Shown here in pieces: positions 11,293 through 53,704 of a stretch of 64,000 bases of DNA. Below the pieces are notes generated by a model that ran no database searches, had not been told where the DNA came from, and was given only the letters and a program-made list of their open reading frames with translations. Position numbers and translations under genes: made by a program. This stretch comes from Streptomyces fradiae (GTDB lineage: Bacteria; Actinomycetota; Actinomycetes; Streptomycetales; Streptomycetaceae), in NCBI RefSeq assembly GCF_041270065.1, contig NZ_CP065958.1, forward strand, positions 5,580,001-5,644,000, in the 5' to 3' direction. Every line of letters starts with the position of its first letter. Position 1 is the first letter of the stretch.

Positions 11293-11648
11293 GAACCCCC
11301 TTGTGCGGGCGCCCGTAATGGACCACGATCGGCGACGCTCGGTCCGACACCGCACCAGCCCGGCTCCCCGCCGACTGCGCGCGGCGAAGGGTCCCCACCG
11401 AGCGGGCCGGCGGCGACGTCGCCGGCCGTGGACAGGGGGGTTCCTGCTCTGACCGGCAGGGCCTGTCCGATCCGGCCGCGCACCGCGTGGCCAGTGGTTG
11501 TCGCTCGGGGGTGATCGCCGGTGATTAGGACGCGCGTCGTGCCGCCTGAGCCCTCGGCGCTCTCCTTCCCGAGGACGTAGCACTTCTCCCATCCCAGGAC
11601 GGGCCCTGGGCCCATCCGGAGATGTACGTCCGAGAAGGAGGAATTCTC

Positions 11649-25899: not shown

Positions 25900-27252
25900 G
25901 TGGCCGCAAGACGGGACCGCACCCATTACCTGTACCTGGCCGTGATCGGCGCCGTCGTGCTCGGCATCGCCGTGGGCTTCCTGGCGCCGGACTTCGCCGT
26001 CGAGCTCAAGCCGCTCGGCACCGGCTTCGTCAACCTGATCAAGATGATGATCTCGCCGATCATCTTCTGCACGATCGTGCTCGGCGTCGGTTCCGTACGC
26101 AAAGCCACCAAGGTCGGCGCGGTCGGCGGCCTCGCCCTCGGCTACTTCCTGGTGATGTCGACCGTCGCCCTCGGCATCGGCCTGGTCGTCGGCAACATCC
26201 TGGAGCCCGGGTCCAGCCTGCACCTCACCAAGGACATCGCCGAGGCCGGCGCCAAGCAGGCGGCGGGCGCGAGCGAGGGCACCGCCGACTTCCTCCTCGG
26301 CATCATCCCCAAGACCATCGTCTCCGCCTTCACCGAGGGCGAGGTGCTGCAGACCCTGCTCGTCGCGCTCCTCGCGGGCTTCGCGCTCCAGGCGATGGGC
26401 TCCGCCGGCGAGCCGGTGCTCCGCGGCATCGGGCACATCCAGCGGCTTGTCTTCCGCATCCTCGCGATGATCATGTGGGCCGCGCCGGTCGGCGCGTTCG
26501 GCGCGATGGCCGCCGTCGTCGGCGCCACCGGCATCGACGCCCTGAAGTCGCTCGCCGTCATCATGATCGGCTTCTACATCACCTGCGCGCTCTTCGTCTT
26601 CGTGGTGCTCGGCACGCTGCTCCGGCTGATCGCCGGCGTCAACATCCTGTCGCTCCTGAAGTACCTGGGCCGCGAGTTCCTGCTCATCCTGTCCACCTCC
26701 TCCTCCGAGTCGGCGCTGCCCCGCCTGATCGCGAAGATGGAGCACCTGGGCGTCTCCAAGCCGGTGGTCGGCATCACCGTCCCGACCGGCTACTCCTTCA
26801 ACCTCGACGGCACCGCGATCTATCTGACGATGGCCTCGCTCTTCGTCGCCGAGGCGATGGGCGACCCGCTGTCGATCGGCGAGCAGATCTCCCTCCTCGT
26901 CTTCATGATCATCGCCTCCAAGGGCGCGGCGGGCGTCACCGGCGCCGGACTCGCCACCCTGGCCGGCGGCCTCCAGTCGCACCGCCCCGAACTCGTCGAC
27001 GGCGTCGGCCTGATCGTCGGCATCGACCGCTTCATGAGCGAGGCCCGCGCCCTCACCAACTTCGCGGGCAACGCCGTCGCCACCGTCCTGGTCGGCACCT
27101 GGACCAAGGAGATCGACAAGGCCCGGGTCACCGAGGTCCTCGCCGGCCGCGCGCCCTTCGACGAGACCACCCTCGTCGACGACCACGCCCCCGCCGGCGT
27201 ACCGGACCAGCGCGCCGACGAGGGCGAGGAGAAGGCCCGGGCCGGCGTCTGA
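25900..27252 (+). CDS. dctA: C4-dicarboxylate transporter DctA (dicarboxylate:cation symporter)
   Basis: A 450-residue membrane symporter of the DAACS/SDF family that takes up succinate, fumarate or malate with protons or sodium. The family features are in order: N-terminal helices from residue 10 (YLYLAVIGAVVLGIAVGFL), MMISPIIFCTIVLGV, the serine-rich re-entrant STSSSESALPRLI, PTGYSFNLDGTAIYLTMASLFVA, the second re-entrant around SKGAAGVTGAGLATLA, and VGIDRFMSEARALTNFAGNAVATV with the conserved DRFMSEARALTN. A GTG start has GAGGAG upstream. It is divergent from the CitA/CitB-like pair. The charged C-terminal tail of about 40 residues is unremarkable. Confidence 0.94.
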   Translation: MAARRDRTHYLYLAVIGAVVLGIAVGFLAPDFAVELKPLGTGFVNLIKMMISPIIFCTIVLGVGSVRKATKVGAVGGLALGYFLVMSTVALGIGLVVGNILEPGSSLHLTKDIAEAGAKQAAGASEGTADFLLGIIPKTIVSAFTEGEVLQTLLVALLAGFALQAMGSAGEPVLRGIGHIQRLVFRILAMIMWAAPVGAFGAMAAVVGATGIDALKSLAVIMIGFYITCALFVFVVLGTLLRLIAGVNILSLLKYLGREFLLILSTSSSESALPRLIAKMEHLGVSKPVVGITVPTGYSFNLDGTAIYLTMASLFVAEAMGDPLSIGEQISLLVFMIIASKGAAGVTGAGLATLAGGLQSHRPELVDGVGLIVGIDRFMSEARALTNFAGNAVATVLVGTWTKEIDKARVTEVLAGRAPFDETTLVDDHAPAGVPDQRADEGEEKARAGV

Positions 27253-31130: not shown

Positions 31131-32095
31131 CCGACCCCGTGACCGACGCCGACTTCGACCCCCGCTCCGACCCCTACTCCGACCATGTCCGCTACCGGGA
31201 CCAGGTGCCCCGCACCCTGACCGCCGGGATCGGCGCCGCGGCGGTCCGCCACCGCGCCTTCGACCCGGCCCTCAAGCAGTTCGACCAGGCCTTCGCCCCC
31301 ACGGACACCGTGGTCGCGGACCCGGAGCTCCGCGCCCGCTGGCAGGACGCCCGCCGCTCCGCCCTCGGCCTGGTCCTCGCGGCCGTCGCCGGCTCGCCCT
31401 GGGCGGACTCCCTGGTGCTGCGCGGCAGCATGCTGATGTCGGCCTGGTTCGGCGAGGCCGCCCGCTCGCCCAAGGACATCGACTTCGTCGTGGTCCCCGC
31501 GACCTGGCGCATCGAGGAGCCGCGCACCCGCGCCATGCTCGACGGCATCGCCGAGGCGGCCGAGCGGCACGCACGTACGGTGGGGTCCGAGATCGAGCTC
31601 TCCGCGGCCGGGGCCGTGACCGAGGAGATCTGGACCTACGAGCGGGTGCCGGGCCACCGTCTGGTGATCCCGTGGACGGCGCCGGGCCTGCCCGGCGGTC
31701 AGGTCCAGCTCGACTTCGTCTTCAACGAGCCCCTTCCGCTGCCCGCCGAGCCGGCCGAGGTGGTGGGCGTGCGCGTGACGGCCGCGAGCCGCGAACTCTC
31801 CCTCGCCTGGAAGCTCATGTGGCTGCTCAGCGACATGTACCCGCAGGGCAAGGACCTGTATGACGCGGTGCTCCTGGCCGAGAGCTGCACGCCGCCGCTG
31901 GCGCTCGTGGAGCGGCTGCTGCGGGAGGCGGACGAGTGGCCGGGGTACGCGAACGAGTCGCTGACCCTGCCGATGTTCGAGTCCGCGCTCGGCGAGGTCG
32001 ACTGGGACGGCTTCGGCGACCCGCACGCCGACACCGAGGAGGCGCGCCGAGAGCTCGGCGCCCGCCTCCTCGCGGTCGTGGCCCCGCTGCTCTAG
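31127..32095 (+). CDS. AbiEii-like nucleotidyltransferase
   Basis: A 322-residue protein of the nucleotidyltransferase AbiEii/AbiGii toxin superfamily. The core signature is LVLRGSMLMSAWF followed by SPKDIDFVVV: a GS motif and the metal-binding D-x-D equivalent DID, plus a later acidic strand (QVQLDFVFNEP). Members of this superfamily, such as the AbiE and MenT toxins, transfer nucleotides, in MenT onto tRNA acceptor ends. A GTG start with AGAGGAAA overlaps the preceding stop. The upstream protein does not resemble the AbiEi antitoxin, so a toxin-antitoxin assignment is not proven. The stop overlaps by 4 bp that of the convergent second threonyl-tRNA synthetase gene. Confidence 0.78.
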   Translation: MTDPVTDADFDPRSDPYSDHVRYRDQVPRTLTAGIGAAAVRHRAFDPALKQFDQAFAPTDTVVADPELRARWQDARRSALGLVLAAVAGSPWADSLVLRGSMLMSAWFGEAARSPKDIDFVVVPATWRIEEPRTRAMLDGIAEAAERHARTVGSEIELSAAGAVTEEIWTYERVPGHRLVIPWTAPGLPGGQVQLDFVFNEPLPLPAEPAEVVGVRVTAASRELSLAWKLMWLLSDMYPQGKDLYDAVLLAESCTPPLALVERLLREADEWPGYANESLTLPMFESALGEVDWDGFGDPHADTEEARRELGARLLAVVAPLL

Positions 32096-33342
32096 GCGAG
32101 GTCGTCCCAGAGCGCGGTGGCGTGCGCCGCCACCAACCCCCGTACCCGCTCGACGAGTTCGGCCGCCGGCATCGGGTCGAGGCGGCGTCCGTCCCGGAGC
32201 CGTACCGCCACCTGGCCGTCGGCGGCCTCCTTCGCGCCGATGACGAGCTGGTACGGGACGAGGCGGGAGGCGCGGATGCGGGCGCCGAGGGTGCCGTGGT
32301 GGGGTCCCACGACCTCGGCGCGCAGGCCGAGTTCGGCGCAGCGGGCGGCGAGCCCGGCGGCGGCCTCGTACTCGGCGTCGGAGACCGGCAGTACGGCGAG
32401 CTGGACCGGGGCGAGCCAGGCGGGGAAGGCGCCGGCGTGGTGCTCGACGAGATGCGCGACGGCGCGTTCGACGCTGCCGACGACGGAGCGGTGGACCATC
32501 ACGGGGCGGTGCTTGGCGCCGTCGGCACCGATGTAGTGGAGGTCGAACTGCTCGGGCTGGTGGAAGTCGATCTGCACGGTGGAGAGGGTGGACTCGCGGC
32601 CGGCCGGGTCGGCGACCTGCACGTCGATCTTCGGCCCGTAGAAGGCGGCCTCGCCCTCGGCCTCCTCGTAGGCGAGCCCGGAGGCGTCCAGGACCTCGCG
32701 GAGGAGTGCGGTGGCACGGGCCCACTTCTCGGGTGCGTCCACGTACTTGCCGCCGGGCCCGGCGAGCGAGAGCCGGTAGCGGGCCGCCTCGATGCCCATG
32801 GCGGCGTACGCCTCGCGGATCAGGCGCAGCGCGGCGGCGGCCTCCTCGGCGACCTGGTCGAGGGTGCAGAAGACATGCGCGTCGTTGAGCCCGATGGCCC
32901 GCACCCGGGTCAGCCCGCCGAGCACACCGGACATCTCGGACCGGAACATGCCGCCCAACTCGGCCATGCGGAGGGGGAGTTCCCGGTAGCTGTGCGCGCG
33001 GGAGCGGAACATCACGGCGTGGTGCGGGCAGAGGCTGGGCCGCAGCACGAACTGCTCGCCGCCGACGTCCATGGGCGGGAACATGTCGTCCTGGTAGTGC
33101 GCCCAGTGCCCGGAGATCTCGTACAGCTCGCGCTTGCCCAGCACGGGCGAGTACACATGCCGGTACCCGGCCCGCCGCTCGGCCTCCCGTACGTACTCCT
33201 CCAGCGCGTGCCGCACGACGGCCCCGTCCGGCAGCCAGTACGGCAGCCCGGCCCCGATCAGCGGATCGGTGTCGAACAGCTCAAGCTCACGGCCCAGCCT
33301 GCGGTGGTCGACTCCCTTTTCGGCACCCTTGTCGATGCTCAT
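32092..33342 (-). CDS. Short second threonyl-tRNA synthetase (no TGS/editing domains)
   Basis: A 416-residue class II synthetase that would charge tRNA-Thr. It begins directly at the catalytic domain (DHRRLGRELELFDTD) and lacks the N-terminal TGS and editing domains of the housekeeping enzyme (about 650 residues). The zinc ligands are present as Cys105 (PSLCPHH), His156 (NDAHVFC) and His284 (VMVHRSV). Motif 2 diverges from usual (FRSEMSG..GGLTRVR). The anticodon-binding domain covers about residues 310-416. The ATG has GAGGAG. Upstream on the same strand are a Thr-rich leader peptide and a large hairpin. Such short paralogues can act as inducible backups or confer resistance to synthetase inhibitors; which applies is unknown. 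Confidence 0.9.
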   Translation of the reverse strand: MSIDKGAEKGVDHRRLGRELELFDTDPLIGAGLPYWLPDGAVVRHALEEYVREAERRAGYRHVYSPVLGKRELYEISGHWAHYQDDMFPPMDVGGEQFVLRPSLCPHHAVMFRSRAHSYRELPLRMAELGGMFRSEMSGVLGGLTRVRAIGLNDAHVFCTLDQVAEEAAAALRLIREAYAAMGIEAARYRLSLAGPGGKYVDAPEKWARATALLREVLDASGLAYEEAEGEAAFYGPKIDVQVADPAGRESTLSTVQIDFHQPEQFDLHYIGADGAKHRPVMVHRSVVGSVERAVAHLVEHHAGAFPAWLAPVQLAVLPVSDAEYEAAAGLAARCAELGLRAEVVGPHHGTLGARIRASRLVPYQLVIGAKEAADGQVAVRLRDGRRLDPMPAAELVERVRGLVAAHATALWDDLA

Positions 33343-33391
33343 CGTCACTCCTCGTTCTTCACGGGGGAGCGAGCACCCGGACGCGACGACG

Positions 33392-33425
33392 CCGAAGCCC
33401 CGGGGCACTCGCCCCGGGGCTTCGG
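33392..33425 (-). terminator. Attenuator hairpin upstream of the second threonyl-tRNA synthetase gene
   Basis: A perfect 14-bp stem (CCGAAGCCCCGGGG and complement) with a 6-base loop, about 15 bases after the leader-peptide stop and 50 bases before the synthetase ATG. No U-run follows, as often in Streptomyces. An 11-bp segment over its 3' base (33384-33394) is complementary to the leader Thr codons (33460-33470), offering a competing fold. Confidence 0.8.
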
Positions 33426-33438
33426 ACAAACTCAGCTG

Positions 33439-33495
33439 TCAGCGCGCCGGGACACTCTCCGGCGTCGTCGTCTGGAACGCGGCACGCTGCTTCAT
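33439..33495 (-). CDS. Threonine leader peptide (18 residues)
   Basis: The short ORF encodes MKQRAAFQTTTPESVPAR. Three successive Thr codons (all ACG) lie mid-way, as expected for ribosome-mediated attenuation sensing charged tRNA-Thr. It is followed by the 14-bp hairpin and then the threonyl-tRNA synthetase gene. The ATG has no ribosome-binding site, but TAGCGT (33503-33508) lies seven bases upstream, fitting a leaderless leader peptide, as known for the Streptomyces trp leader. A 6-bp pause-type stem (33445-33450 with 33459-33464) overlaps its 3' part. Expression is not demonstrated. Confidence 0.75.
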   Translation of the reverse strand: MKQRAAFQTTTPESVPAR

Positions 33496-33502
33496 ACGGC
33501 AG

Positions 33503-33508
33503 ACGCTA
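33503..33508 (-). promoter_or_regulatory. -10 box for the threonine leader transcript
   Basis: TAGCGT on the minus strand, seven bases before the leader-peptide ATG. It predicts transcription starting at or next to that ATG. The -35 region is GC-rich and not recognisable. Confidence 0.45.
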
Positions 33509-33586
33509 GCAGGGGCCCGCCGGCCCGCGCGCGGGATTTTCGCGGCGCTCGCGCTCTCGGGGCACAAAAAATCCCCGGACTTAGAA

Positions 33587-33691: not shown

Positions 33692-35929
33692 TTGTCAACC
33701 GAAGAATTTCGGAACGAGCAGAAATTCATCACCGAGCTCTACGCACGACTCGACGACCTGAGGGACCAGGCCGAGGCCGGCGTCGCCCGGGCCCTCGCCA
33801 CGCCCGGCGAGGGCAGCGCGCAGGCGCGCCTGGAGCGGGACGTGCTCGTGGCCGAGCAGTCCGGGCTGCTCACCGCGCTGAACGCGGGGGAGAGCGGGCT
33901 GTGCTTCGGGCGGCTCGTGTTCCGGGACGGGCGCGACCACCACATCGGGCGGATCGGGATCCGGCGGGACGACCCGAACCGCACCCCCCTCGTCGTCGAC
34001 TGGCGCGCCGACGTCGCCCGCCCCTTCTACCTGGCCACCGGCTACGAGCCGATGGGGCTCCGGCGCCGCCGCCACATCACCACCCACGGCCGCGACGTGG
34101 TGTCCCTCCACGACGAGGTGCTCGACCTGCGGGACGCGACCCGCACCGGGCACGAGAACCGCGACGCCGACGAGGTCCTGCTCGCCGCGCTCGACGCCGC
34201 CCGCACCGGCCGTATGCACGACATCGTGCAGACCATCCAGGCCGAGCAGGACGCCATCATCCGCTCCCCGCACCGCGGCGTCCTCGTCGTCGAGGGCGGC
34301 CCCGGCACCGGCAAGACCGCCGTCGCCCTGCACCGCGCCGCGTACCTCCTCTACGCCCACCGCGAGCAGCTCGCCAAGCGCGCCGTCCTCATCGTCGGCC
34401 CGAACCCCGCCTTCCTCGGCTACATCGGCAACGTCCTGCCCTCCCTCGGCGAGACCGGCGTCCTCCTCGCCACCCCCGGCGAGCTCTACCCCGGCGTCCA
34501 CGCCACCGGTACGGACACCCCGCGCGCCGCCGCCGTCAAGGGCTCCGCCCGGATGGCGGAGGCCCTGGCGCAGGCCGTACGCGACCGCCAGCAGGTCCCC
34601 GAGCGCGGCGCGCCGCTGGTCGTCCCGCACGAGGACGGCGACCTGATCGTCGACTGGGACATGGCCCTGGAGGCCCGGCACAAGGCCCGCGAGACCTTCC
34701 TGCCGCACAACCTGGCCCGCCCCTACTTCGTCTTCGCGATCCTCGACGCGCTCGCCGAACAGCTCGCCGACCGCATCGGCGCCGACCCCTACGGCGGCCC
34801 CAACTTCCTCGGCCCCGACGACCGCGCGCTGCTCGCCAAGGGCGTCGCCGCCAACCCCGAGGTGCACGCCGCCCTCGACACCCTGTGGCCGGCCCTCACC
34901 CCCGAGACCTTCCTCGCCGACTACCTCGCCGAGCCCACCCACCTGGACGACGCCGACATCGCGGCGATCCGCCGCGACCAGGGAGAGTGGACGCCGGCCG
35001 ACGTCCCCCTCCTCGACGAGGCCGCCGAACTCCTCGGCGAGGACGACTCCGCCGCCCGCGCCGCCGAGGAGGCCGAACGACAGAAGCAGATCGCCTACGC
35101 GCAGGGCGTCCTCGACGTCTCCTTCGCCTCCCGCACGTACGAGTTCGAGGACAAGACCGAACTCGACGCCGACGCCTCCGAGGTGCTGTCCGCCCACGAC
35201 ATCATCGACGCCGAACGCTTCGCCGAGCGCCACGAGGAGGCCGACCACCGCAGCGCCGCCGAACGCGCCGCCGCCGACCGCACCTGGGCCTTCGGCCACA
35301 TCATCGTCGACGAGGCGCAGGAGCTGTCCGCGATGCTGTGGCGGCTGCTCATGCGGCGCAGCCCCACCCGCTCCATGACCCTGGTCGGCGACCCGGCGCA
35401 GACCGGCGACCCGGCCGGCGTCGGCTCCTGGCAGGAGATCCTCGCGCCGTACGTGGAGGACCGCTGGGAGCTCGTCCGGCTCGGCGTCAACTACCGCACC
35501 CCGGCCGAGATCATGGAGGTCGCCGCCGAGGTGCGGCGCGCCGCCGACCCGGGCTTCGAGCCGCCGCGCTCGGTGCGCTCCACGGGCGTCGCGCCCTGGG
35601 ACCGTACGGTCGAGGACCCGGTGAAGGAGACCGCCGACGCGGTCGCGGCGGAGCTCCGGCCCGAGGGCCGGCTCGCCGTCATCGCCCCGGCCGCCCTCCA
35701 CCCCGACCTGATCGCGGCCCTGCCCGACGCCGCGTACGGGCCGAAGCCCGACCTGACGCGCCCGGTCGTGCTGCTCGACCCGCGCCAGGCGAAGGGCCTC
35801 GAGTTCGACACGGTGCTCGTCGTCGACCCCGAGGCCATCCGATCCGCCGCTCCGCACGGCATCAACGACCTGTACGTGGCGCTGACCCGGGCCACCCAGC
35901 GGATGGGTGTGATCAGGCGGGCGGTCTGA
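33692..35929 (+). CDS. helD: HelD-like RNA polymerase-associated ATPase (UvrD-type helicase fold)
   Basis: A 745-residue superfamily 1 protein. A long N-terminal coiled-coil arm (about residues 1-60), then Walker A GGPGTGKTAVAL, motif II IIVDEAQELS, motif III LVGDPAQTGDPAG and the C-terminal motifs DPRQAKGLEFDTVLVVDP and YVALTRATQRMGV are clear. Actinobacterial HelD and HelR proteins of this length pull RNA polymerase off DNA and recycle it; HelR also gives rifamycin tolerance. I cannot tell HelD from HelR, and see no rifamycin-associated element upstream. The start is TTG, with GGGAG five bases before it. The gene is divergent from the threonyl-tRNA synthetase leader and ends next to glgB (convergent). 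Confidence 0.83.
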   Translation: MSTEEFRNEQKFITELYARLDDLRDQAEAGVARALATPGEGSAQARLERDVLVAEQSGLLTALNAGESGLCFGRLVFRDGRDHHIGRIGIRRDDPNRTPLVVDWRADVARPFYLATGYEPMGLRRRRHITTHGRDVVSLHDEVLDLRDATRTGHENRDADEVLLAALDAARTGRMHDIVQTIQAEQDAIIRSPHRGVLVVEGGPGTGKTAVALHRAAYLLYAHREQLAKRAVLIVGPNPAFLGYIGNVLPSLGETGVLLATPGELYPGVHATGTDTPRAAAVKGSARMAEALAQAVRDRQQVPERGAPLVVPHEDGDLIVDWDMALEARHKARETFLPHNLARPYFVFAILDALAEQLADRIGADPYGGPNFLGPDDRALLAKGVAANPEVHAALDTLWPALTPETFLADYLAEPTHLDDADIAAIRRDQGEWTPADVPLLDEAAELLGEDDSAARAAEEAERQKQIAYAQGVLDVSFASRTYEFEDKTELDADASEVLSAHDIIDAERFAERHEEADHRSAAERAAADRTWAFGHIIVDEAQELSAMLWRLLMRRSPTRSMTLVGDPAQTGDPAGVGSWQEILAPYVEDRWELVRLGVNYRTPAEIMEVAAEVRRAADPGFEPPRSVRSTGVAPWDRTVEDPVKETADAVAAELRPEGRLAVIAPAALHPDLIAALPDAAYGPKPDLTRPVVLLDPRQAKGLEFDTVLVVDPEAIRSAAPHGINDLYVALTRATQRMGVIRRAV

Positions 35930-51679: not shown

Positions 51680-53704
51680 TTACGGGAAGGTCAGCTTGAA
51701 GCTGTTGATGTAGCCGGTGTCGTAGCTGGCCTTGTCCTGGACGCGGAGCTTCCAGGTGCCGTTGGCGACCTCCGAGGAGGCGTTCACGGTGTAGGTCTGC
51801 TGGATGTTGTCCGCGCTGCTGCCGGTCCGGTTGTGCAGGTTGTAGACCGAGCCGTCGGGGGCGATCAGGTCGACGACCAGGTCACCGATCCAGGTGTGGA
51901 CGATGTCCACGCCGACGGAGAGGTTGCTGGGCGCGTTGCCCGTGATGCCCGTGACGTTGACCGAGGAGGTCACCGCCGCGCCGTTGTCCGGGATGTTGAC
52001 GTTGGTGTCGTTGGTGAACACCGTGCCGCCGGGGGTGCCGCCGCCGGGGCGGGAGCCGACGTTGATGGCGGCCCAGGCGTTCTCGACCGCCGTGACCTCG
52101 GCGCTGCCGGCCCCGTAGAGCTCGGTGGCCGCGGCGACCGTACCGGTGCGGGCACCGGCGTAGTTGGTGTTCGAGGTGAACTTGGTGGTGAGCGCCTTGA
52201 ACCAGATCAGGCGGGCCTTGTCGATGCCTATGCCGGTGACCGGCAGGCCGTCGGAGGTCGGCGAGTCGTAGTTCACGCCGTTGACGGTCTTGGCGCCGCT
52301 GCCCTCGGAGAGCAGGTAGAAGAAGTGGTTCGCCGGGCCCGAGGAGTAGTGGACGTCGATGGAGCCGATGCCCGAGTACCACGAGTCCTTGGACGAGCCG
52401 TCCTTGCTCGGCTTGTCCATGTAGCGCAGCGGGGTGCCGTTGCCGCGGATGTCGATCTTCTCGCCGACGAGGTAGTCGCCCTTGTCGTTGGCGTTGTTGG
52501 CGTAGAACTCGACGGCCGCCGCCATGATGTCCGAGGTGGCCTCGTTGAGGCCGCCGGACTCACCGCTGTAGACCAGGCCCGCGGTGTTGGAGGTGACGCC
52601 GTGCGTCATCTCGTGCGCGGCCACGTCGATGGACGTCAGCGGCTTGGTGTTGTTGGTGCCGTCGCCGTACGTCATGCAGAAGCACGAGTCGGACCAGAAG
52701 GCGTTGACGTACGCGTTGCCGTAGTGGACCCGGGAGTACGCGCCGACGCCGTCGCCGCGGATGCCGGAGCGGCCGTGCACGTTCTTGTAGTAGTCCCAGG
52801 TGAGCGCGGCGCCGTAGTGGGCGTCGGCGCCGGCCGTCTCCTTGTTGGAGGGCAGGCCGTTGCCCCAGGTGTCGGTGCTGTTGGTGAACAGCGTGCCGGT
52901 GCCCGACGTACCGCCGTTGAGGTTGTACGTCTTGTGGTTGCCGCGCGTGGTGTCGGTCAGCGAGTACGAGGGCGCGGTGCCGAGGGTCACCTGGCCGCTG
53001 TACATCGTGTTGCCGATGCCGGTCTCGATGGCCTGCCACTCGAAGAGCTTGGCACCGGACTTGGCGTCCGTGATGACGTGCAGCTCGTTCGGGGTGCCGT
53101 CGTGCTGGAGGCCGCCGACGACGGTCTCGTACGCGAGGACGGGGGTGCCGTTCGCGGCCCAGACGACCTTGCGCGGGGCGCGGTTCGCCTTGGTGGACTT
53201 GGCGCCCTCGGCGTTGGCGCGGCCGACGGCCTGCTTCTCGGCGGCGGCCGGGGCGACGGTCGCGGCGGCGACGTCGACCTTGGTGATGTCCGCGCGGGTG
53301 GCCTTGGTGACCGAGGTGGTCGCGCCGGCCTTGGTGGCCTCGACGACGAGGTCGCCGCCGAGCACCGGGAGGCCCTGGAAGGTGCGCTCGTAGCGCGTGT
53401 AGGTCGAGCCGTCACGGCTCTGGACCACGTCGCGGACGACCAGCTTCTCCTGGGCGCCGAGGCCGAGCCGCTGGGCGGTGGCGGCCGAGTCGGCCTGGGC
53501 GGCCTTGATCAGCGCGGCCCGCTGGGCCGGGGAGAGGTCGGCCGGCAGCTTGCCGGGGTTGGCCTTGCCGGCGGCCTGCGCCTGGGGCGCGGCGCCGAGC
53601 TGGTCGGCGGTGGCGGTGCCGGTCTGGACACCGACGGCGATCATGGCGGCGGCAGCGATCAGAGCGCCGGTCGCGGTGGCGCGACGGCTGGGCGTGGATC
53701 TCAC
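51680..53704 (-). CDS. Secreted M4-family metalloprotease (thermolysin-like) with P-domain
   Basis: A 674-residue extracellular protease. A signal peptide covers about residues 1-34 (RRATATGALIAAAAMIAVGVQT, then ATADQ), followed by an FTP/PepSY-type propeptide to about residue 225. The catalytic domain has HEMTH (His364, Glu365, His368) and the third zinc ligand in GGLNEATSD (Glu388). The C-terminal about 100 residues form a P-domain (GDLVVDLIAPDGSVYNLHNRTGSSADN). I placed the start at GTG with AAAGGAG upstream; an ORF extension would add 20 residues without this site. The unusual motif SDSCFCMTYGDG adds Cys pairs. It has its own terminator. Confidence 0.93.
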   Translation of the reverse strand: MRSTPSRRATATGALIAAAAMIAVGVQTGTATADQLGAAPQAQAAGKANPGKLPADLSPAQRAALIKAAQADSAATAQRLGLGAQEKLVVRDVVQSRDGSTYTRYERTFQGLPVLGGDLVVEATKAGATTSVTKATRADITKVDVAAATVAPAAAEKQAVGRANAEGAKSTKANRAPRKVVWAANGTPVLAYETVVGGLQHDGTPNELHVITDAKSGAKLFEWQAIETGIGNTMYSGQVTLGTAPSYSLTDTTRGNHKTYNLNGGTSGTGTLFTNSTDTWGNGLPSNKETAGADAHYGAALTWDYYKNVHGRSGIRGDGVGAYSRVHYGNAYVNAFWSDSCFCMTYGDGTNNTKPLTSIDVAAHEMTHGVTSNTAGLVYSGESGGLNEATSDIMAAAVEFYANNANDKGDYLVGEKIDIRGNGTPLRYMDKPSKDGSSKDSWYSGIGSIDVHYSSGPANHFFYLLSEGSGAKTVNGVNYDSPTSDGLPVTGIGIDKARLIWFKALTTKFTSNTNYAGARTGTVAAATELYGAGSAEVTAVENAWAAINVGSRPGGGTPGGTVFTNDTNVNIPDNGAAVTSSVNVTGITGNAPSNLSVGVDIVHTWIGDLVVDLIAPDGSVYNLHNRTGSSADNIQQTYTVNASSEVANGTWKLRVQDKASYDTGYINSFKLTFP

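Follow-up and report, generated by a model that had tools for sequence, protein, structure and literature searches.

A threonine-codon leader upstream of the short threonyl-tRNA synthetase gene thrS2 in Streptomyces fradiae: a probable ribosome-mediated attenuator and its conservation

Background

The thrS gene of Bacillus subtilis is under T-box control with uncharged tRNA-Thr as the signal, and T-box RNAs bind this tRNA directly, without a leader peptide. The thrS2 locus described here concerns the same gene family and would use the same signal, with a peptide taking the place of direct tRNA binding. In the erm-type translational attenuators, which are macrolide sensors, a ribosome stalled on a leader peptide releases the Shine-Dalgarno site; the thrS2 leader shares this stalled-ribosome logic, with tRNA in place of macrolides and with a Shine-Dalgarno layer that is here a suggestion. 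Judging from its title, a 2010 study by Lopatovskaya et al. reportedly covers attenuators of synthetase genes, and it may include the thrS2 leader.

The Streptomyces trpE, trpS and leuS attenuators are like the thrS2 leader in combining a leader peptide containing cognate codons with competing hairpins ahead of a synthetase or biosynthetic gene, whereas the leuS attenuator, unlike the thrS2 leader, includes a poly-U tract in its terminator; for the threonine operons of Actinobacteria, the accessible text of the same source gives no conserved upstream RNA structures (PMC1262725). In the accessible text of PMC8079986, thrL of S. lividans TK24 is leaderless and has two threonines and a single hairpin, and it lacks a uridine-rich sequence. 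The leader in our window (the complete 64,000-nt stretch of S. fradiae DNA analysed, to which all coordinates refer unless a locus is named) resembles the S. lividans thrL-thrS arrangement in its apparently leaderless 18-codon peptide ending in VPAR, its one hairpin and its lack of a U-rich run, and differs in having three Thr codons rather than two (PMC8079986). A preliminary description of the window took a threonine-sensing leader on a synthetase paralogue to be new; with thrL in print for S. lividans TK24 (PMC8079986), the leader itself is a published idea and no priority is claimed for it. The account of thrL, in the text accessible, contains no antiterminator, segment 0, loop:5 helix, Shine-Dalgarno helix or survey of thrL across species (PMC8079986). 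As far as our literature searches reach, what is new is the segment architecture (segment 0, the 2:3 helix, the strand forming loop:5 or 5:6, and the enrichment of a WblC-type box) together with the spread of the element. What was one line in a table on one strain would become an RNA regulator of wide distribution whose fold can be tested, with relevance to the means by which GC-rich actinomycetes achieve attenuation when U-tract terminators are lacking.

Results and discussion

The thrS2 gene and its genomic setting

The thrS2 gene (32092-33342, minus strand) encodes a 416-aa threonyl-tRNA synthetase which matches TIGR00418 (NCBIfam thrS) with 463.3 bits, above the cut-off, over positions 168-562 of the 565 in the profile. 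A Pfam scan of the protein gave PF00587 and PF03129 alone (class II core and anticodon-binding domain), with the TGS and editing domains not found, and the alignment to the S. aureus ThrRS begins at residue 239. From the partial profile cover, the two Pfam domains and the start of this alignment we conclude that thrS2 encodes an editing-free paralogue, consisting of the catalytic and anticodon-binding parts only. A second, full-length thrS is present in the same genome, and thrS2 may be a spare synthetase, held in reserve for when charged tRNA-Thr falls, for instance when the main enzyme is inhibited. The closest named relative (L001) is 95% identical, and the start of thrS2 (33342) is located 96 nt beyond the stop codon of the leader.

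An ORF convergent to thrS2 (31151-32095, plus strand), the end of which overlaps the thrS2 stop codon, matches PF08843 (AbiEii nucleotidyltransferase domain) with 88 bits. On the other side, a divergent UvrD-like helicase gene (33692-35929, plus strand), HelD-like by reading, has its intergenic region in common with the thrS2 leader. At one related locus, L109, no leader remains, and the hairpin directly follows helicase-like sequence.

Promoter and leader open reading frame

The leader ORF (33439-33495, minus strand; ATG at 33495, stop at 33439) has 18 codons and a stop codon, MKQRAAFQTTTPESVPAR, and contains three consecutive threonine codons, ACG ACG ACG (33463-33471, minus strand), confirming the peptide with three successive Thr codons that had been noticed in front of the short synthetase gene. 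The locus hence joins a run of cognate codons within a leader ORF, as in trp-type attenuation, to a short Thr-containing peptide directly 5' of a short thrS, as in thrL. One of the relatives, L170, located 5' of a 75%-identical thrS2, has a peptide identical to that of S. lividans thrL, MKRVRPFLETTPGFVPAR.

A −10 element TAGCGT (33503-33508, minus strand) is located 7 nt 5' of the leader ATG, preceded by a weak −35 sequence (GCGCGC) and, 3 nt further 5', by GAAAAT (33536-33541, minus strand), a WblC/WhiB7-type box of the form GAAAWY. This spacing together with the TANNNT −10 element corresponds to a WblC/WhiB7 promoter, using the box definition and position in the accessible text of PMC7157823. 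Leaderless transcription is predicted from the sequence to start at 33495. A TANNNT motif was found 6-8 nt 5' of the leader start codon in 156/158 distinct promoters, and leaderless transcripts are therefore expected; 8 of the 175 leaders were left out of promoter scoring, as the pattern used did not assign their start codon. GAAAWY was present near the WblC spacing (2-4 nt before the −35, with a spacer of 15-20 nt) in 56/156 scored promoters versus 0.28 expected from letter shuffles, the exact box being absent from 100/156.

The gene SCO3778 is presumably thrS2. A sigma-E binding site has been reported at SCO3778, given as "threonyl tRNA synthetase", in the accessible text of PMC10771440, and thrS2 is among the WblC-activated genes in a table of PMC7157823. 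As far as the two tables are accessible, the WblC-activated synthetases (thrS2, alaS2, trpS and others; Table 1 of PMC7157823) resemble the synthetase genes with leader peptides in S. lividans, for which Table 4 of PMC8079986 gives thrL, alaL and trpL2. A WblC promoter with a codon-specific leader, as a design shared by synthetase genes, is worth testing.

The second and third codons of the Thr run are ACG in all 168 standard-length leaders among the 175 examined, and the first codon in 165/168; ACC is commoner than ACG (65:22) in three genes of the 64-kb window. Pairing with the tail failed to account for the preference for ACG. The first two codons are not explained by pairing, and the ACG codons may therefore be picked for one tRNA-Thr isoacceptor. 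The leader core, ACGACGACGCCGGA....GTCCCGGCGCGCTGA, is near-invariant including its wobble positions. Over the 168 sequences, synonymous departures numbered 0 and non-synonymous ones 4 at the V, P, A and R codons that follow the Thr run, whereas the two codons within the 1:2 stem loop departed in 20 and 47 leaders. This points to selection acting on the RNA rather than on the peptide. At L102 (1351-1470) the core is one base shorter after the Thr run, which shifts the frame and the stop codon and keeps the RNA stems.

Competing helices in the leader RNA

The leader fold is more stable than that of shuffled sequences (z −3.39, with 1/200 shuffles equally good). The hairpin 3' of the leader is indeed present; at 15 bp (33425-33411 with 33406-33392) it is one pair longer than the 14 bp originally given. 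We divided the RNA into segments, all on the minus strand. Segment 0 (AGCGTGC, codons 3-5; 33482-33488) pairs with 33447-33441, and segment 1 (CGCCGG; 33459-33464) with 33450-33445, the latter being the 6-bp stem already noticed. Segment 2 (GTCCCGG; 33447-33453) is an alternative partner for the end of arm 3 (33417-33411), segment 3 (33411-33425) being the 5' arm of the hairpin and segment 4 (33392-33406) its 3' arm.

Percentages of paired cells were taken from an alignment of 63 sequences (A1). The helix of segment 0 (0:2) was paired in 98.2% of cells with one double change, which by reading of A1 is in L118, and the two pieces of the 1:2 helix in 100% and 99.6%, without covariation because this helix is near-invariant. 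The 2:3 helix was paired in 98.4% of cells, with zero double changes within A1, and the 3:4 helix in 94.1%, with double changes at six pairs; for 1:2 and 3:4 together the figure was 95.8%, all six double-change pairs being in 3:4. Matched and swapped combinations were also compared over nine lineages, of which L251 and L274 come from one genus; since related sequences share ancestry, the shuffle and permutation counts given throughout overstate significance. For segment 0 against its end partner, 29/20000 permutations were as good; three of the nine lineages (L242, L244 and L257) had no fit, and segment 0 is therefore not universal. The result for segments 2 and 3 was weaker (438/20000), with first rank for L275 only.

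The preliminary description had the folds compete through a helix between the Thr codons and the tail. The 11 bases at 33470-33460 are perfectly complementary to 33394-33384, and mutually exclusive folds do exist, but this helix is not the competitor: it was paired in 52.2% of cells in the 63 sequences versus 26-51% with the 3' strand slid, had no lineage-specific fit (10294/20000 permutations as good), and coexists with the hairpin in minimum-energy folds, which disqualifies it as the antiterminator. It is the 2:3 helix, 33453-33447 with 33417-33411, that is conserved as a competitor of the hairpin.

The hairpin of the window has no U-tract on its 3' side, and we therefore liken the leader to trp-type attenuation without filing it as a member of that class. 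Among the 63 rows of A1, the number of U residues at the 3' end of the hairpin is six in L118, five in L079 and four in four others. In the L118 element (533-656), the hairpin is altered and six U come after it, as in a classical terminator, in addition to the double change in segment 0. A T-box was not detected in the window, as an Rfam scan at gathering scores gave only a che1 RNA. This che1 RNA is located at 11429-11520 (plus strand), with 91 bits versus a gathering score of 54.1.

Proposed mechanism and ribosome footprint model

We consider the thrS2 leader to be a ribosome-mediated attenuator sensing charged tRNA-Thr, with a probability of about 0.82. Its anatomy, its conservation, and the compensatory double changes in the 3:4, 5:6 and loop:5 helices can be read directly from the compared sequences, while we infer the transcription start, the stalling, the direction of the response and its timing from this anatomy and from knowledge of attenuation. 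A leaderless promoter with a WblC-type box would initiate transcription at the ATG of the leader. If Thr-tRNA is plentiful, the ribosome would reach the stop codon and cover segment 2, allowing the 3:4 hairpin to form and keeping thrS2 low; without a ribosome, segments 0 and 1 would hold segment 2, with the same outcome. When Thr-tRNA is scarce, the ribosome would stall on the ACG codons and mask segments 0 and 1, and the freed segment 2 would pair with the half of arm 3 next to the loop ahead of the synthesis of arm 4, with expression of thrS2 as the result. The hairpin may block RNA polymerase or may work via the Shine-Dalgarno site. The direction proposed beforehand, with scarce charged tRNA-Thr leading to more synthetase, is thus the one that the anatomy would favour.

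The footprint model masked the RNA from 16 nt upstream of the A site to 12 nt downstream, with nascent RNA up to the hairpin loop. In 155 leaders, with arm 4 not yet made, 2:3 had a mean probability of 0.92, 0.90 and 0.77 with the A site on the first, second and third Thr codon, and of 0.16 without a ribosome; for the window leader the values were 1.00, 1.00 and 0.99 versus 0.05, the value at the stop codon being zero by construction of the mask. By computation the 1:2, 2:3 and 3:4 helices are thus mutually exclusive as in trp-type attenuators, with a stall on the Thr codons favouring 2:3. Moving the footprint codon by codon along 13 leaders, some of them diverged, gave an occupied arm 3 at the first Thr codons and a free one past the run in 10/13; with the ribosome still upstream of the run, arm 3 was likewise occupied in the window, L275 and L250, and the scan therefore shows a fall after the run, not a peak on it. 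In L170, the S. lividans-type leader, arm 3 was occupied without a ribosome (9.8) and this was lost with the A site on the second Thr codon, and L079 and L158 gave no signal, the script having picked the wrong hairpin. The model needs kinetic control, because the 15-bp hairpin outcompetes 2:3 at equilibrium.

Further observations count against the attenuator model, in addition to these exceptions in the scan and to the 2:3 helix lacking double changes within A1 and fitting best in L275 only. The U-tract is absent, so that intrinsic termination is unproven; the absence of a U-rich run is likewise noted for S. lividans thrL in the accessible text of PMC8079986. Judged from their sequences, L016 and L109 also speak against the model, with the gene and the hairpin and no leader.

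The strand before the Shine-Dalgarno site

Segment 5 (33368-33375, minus strand) has two alternative partners, the region of the hairpin loop (33413-33406) and the arm containing the Shine-Dalgarno sequence GAGGAG of thrS2 (segment 6; 33348-33353, minus strand). The loop:5 helix was paired in 92.1% of cells versus 38-58% in slid controls, with double changes at 5 pairs in 20 cells, and the 5:6 helix in 81.0%, with double changes at 8 pairs in 23 cells. The covariation score was reached by 0/500 shuffles for either helix, and the number of double-change pairs by 3/500 (loop:5) and 4/500 (5:6). Over the nine lineages, 11/20000 permutations were as good for loop against spacer and 321/20000 for spacer against Shine-Dalgarno; L257 ranked 6 of 9 for loop against spacer and L242, its spacer shortened by the pattern used, 9 of 9. 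Fits to the own loop beat permuted loops in 2000/2000 permutations. With G-U pairs disallowed, a full complement was found for the loop variants CAAGTG (10/11) and CGGGTG (5/7), in which the complement of the common loop was never met; CGAGCG had its own complement in 6/14 and that of the common loop in 4, and the common loop CGAGTG its exact complement in only 43/99. This pattern hints at a second, translational layer, which folding energies do not confirm: in 157 leaders, the Shine-Dalgarno accessibility computed at equilibrium was no higher in the ON context (0.293) than in the OFF context (0.302), with a change above 0.1 upwards in 9 and downwards in 13, and the 5:6 duplex was at least as strong as loop:5 in 138/157. 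A simple release of the Shine-Dalgarno site is unsupported by these energies.

Alternative explanations

These helices are also the basis of an alternative in which control is mainly translational, or at both levels. Ample Thr-tRNA would give 1:2, 3:4 and 5:6 with the Shine-Dalgarno site hidden, and scarce Thr-tRNA 2:3 and loop:5 with the site free, the hairpin serving as a lock on the loop instead of as a terminator. The missing U-tract in the window fits this view, as do the covariation of segment 5 with both of its partners, the lineage fits (11/20000 and 321/20000) and the preference for the own loop in all 2000 permutations; however, the flat accessibility (0.293 versus 0.302), the strength of 5:6 in 138/157 leaders, the common-loop complement in just 43/99 and the poor ranks of L257 and L242 speak against it, and we hold it to be a tenable second choice, with the odds against it. 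The loop:5 and 5:6 helices make it a checkable alternative. A still more elaborate version, which we put forward tentatively and think rather doubtful, is a switch with two levels and six segments, in which the stall on the Thr codons would flip 0/1:2, 3:4 and 5:6 to 2:3 and loop:5, opening both transcription beyond the U-less hairpin and the Shine-Dalgarno site; with the WblC promoter, thrS2 would fire only under translation stress combined with Thr-tRNA shortage, as when the main ThrRS is poisoned, and compensatory change, not sequence, would preserve the design in different classes of Actinomycetota.

The leader might also sense slow translation in general (antibiotics, or shortage of any amino acid), or the WblC promoter might act alone with an incidental hairpin. 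This agrees with the enrichment of the box (56/156 versus 0.28 expected) and with thrS2 being among the WblC-activated genes in the accessible part of PMC7157823, but it is unlikely given that the second and third Thr codons are kept in 168/168 standard leaders, that the Thr run persists in eight diverged leaders (see below) in which the remaining peptide has changed, and that 100/156 promoters miss the exact box. That the hairpin is an ordinary terminator or a chance structure and the small ORF untranslated seems to us very improbable indeed: although GC-rich hairpins and short ORFs are frequent in such DNA, and the weak covariance-model matches L198, L206 and L209 are plain hairpins, this hairpin sits between the leader promoter and thrS2 with the upstream neighbour being divergent, leader and hairpin are conserved and covary, and a leaderless thrL has been published for S. 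lividans (accessible text of PMC8079986).

Conservation and spread

The comparison of orthologous upstream regions proposed in the preliminary description found the leader core in 175/180 regions (the window, 80 named loci and sets of 29 and 70, which are overlapping and redundant), and because of this recurrence the arrangement is more than chance. The five regions without the core are L050, where the contig end falls within the leader, L184, which is a fragment copy, L185, with a 57%-identical protein and no leader, and L016 and L109, which keep the gene and hairpin. Counting listed places, 99/199 sampled genomes of the same genus have a thrS2-type gene, and the core precedes the best thrS2 copy in 98/99 of these, L109 being the exception. 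The 80 named loci also include members of Streptosporangium, Saccharopolyspora, Microbispora, Nocardiopsis, Kitasatospora and Nocardia. As a control, regions upstream of full-length thrS in the same genome and ten others were scanned with two leader patterns, which occurred together in none of them; L191 matched the stem pattern and not the other, and a short unrelated ORF with two neighbouring Thr was present in L194 and in the own genome.

A covariance model (R1) matched the window and one weak place (35.5 bits) elsewhere in the own genome, and at E ≤ 0.01, weak hairpin matches included, 75/101 family genomes and 32/396 phylum genomes. Inspection of 16 strong matches showed 15 followed by this synthetase, the last being cut by the contig end. 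Among matches below 40 bits, L198, L206 and L209 were read individually and rejected as hairpins without a Thr leader, whereas L204 in G558 (39.5 bits) is a genuine element, which led on to short synthetases of diverged sequence. Among 36 genomes in the order of G558, L204 was the only match above 29 bits, and in the order of G239 (3 genomes) G239 was the sole match. In the class of G437 (66 genomes), eight short-synthetase genes rank above the full-length ones, and all eight have a GC hairpin and a Thr-run leader preceded at 6-7 nt by TANNNT; these leaders differ in sequence, the Thr run being kept while the rest of the peptide changes. Pfam found only the ThrRS catalytic and anticodon-binding domains, and no N-terminal domains, in the six of these eight proteins scanned, the frames of the other two holding a stop. 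Finally, contig 1 of G645 carries two equally strong leader elements near one contig end, at 26629-26749 (plus strand) and 52997-53117 (minus strand).
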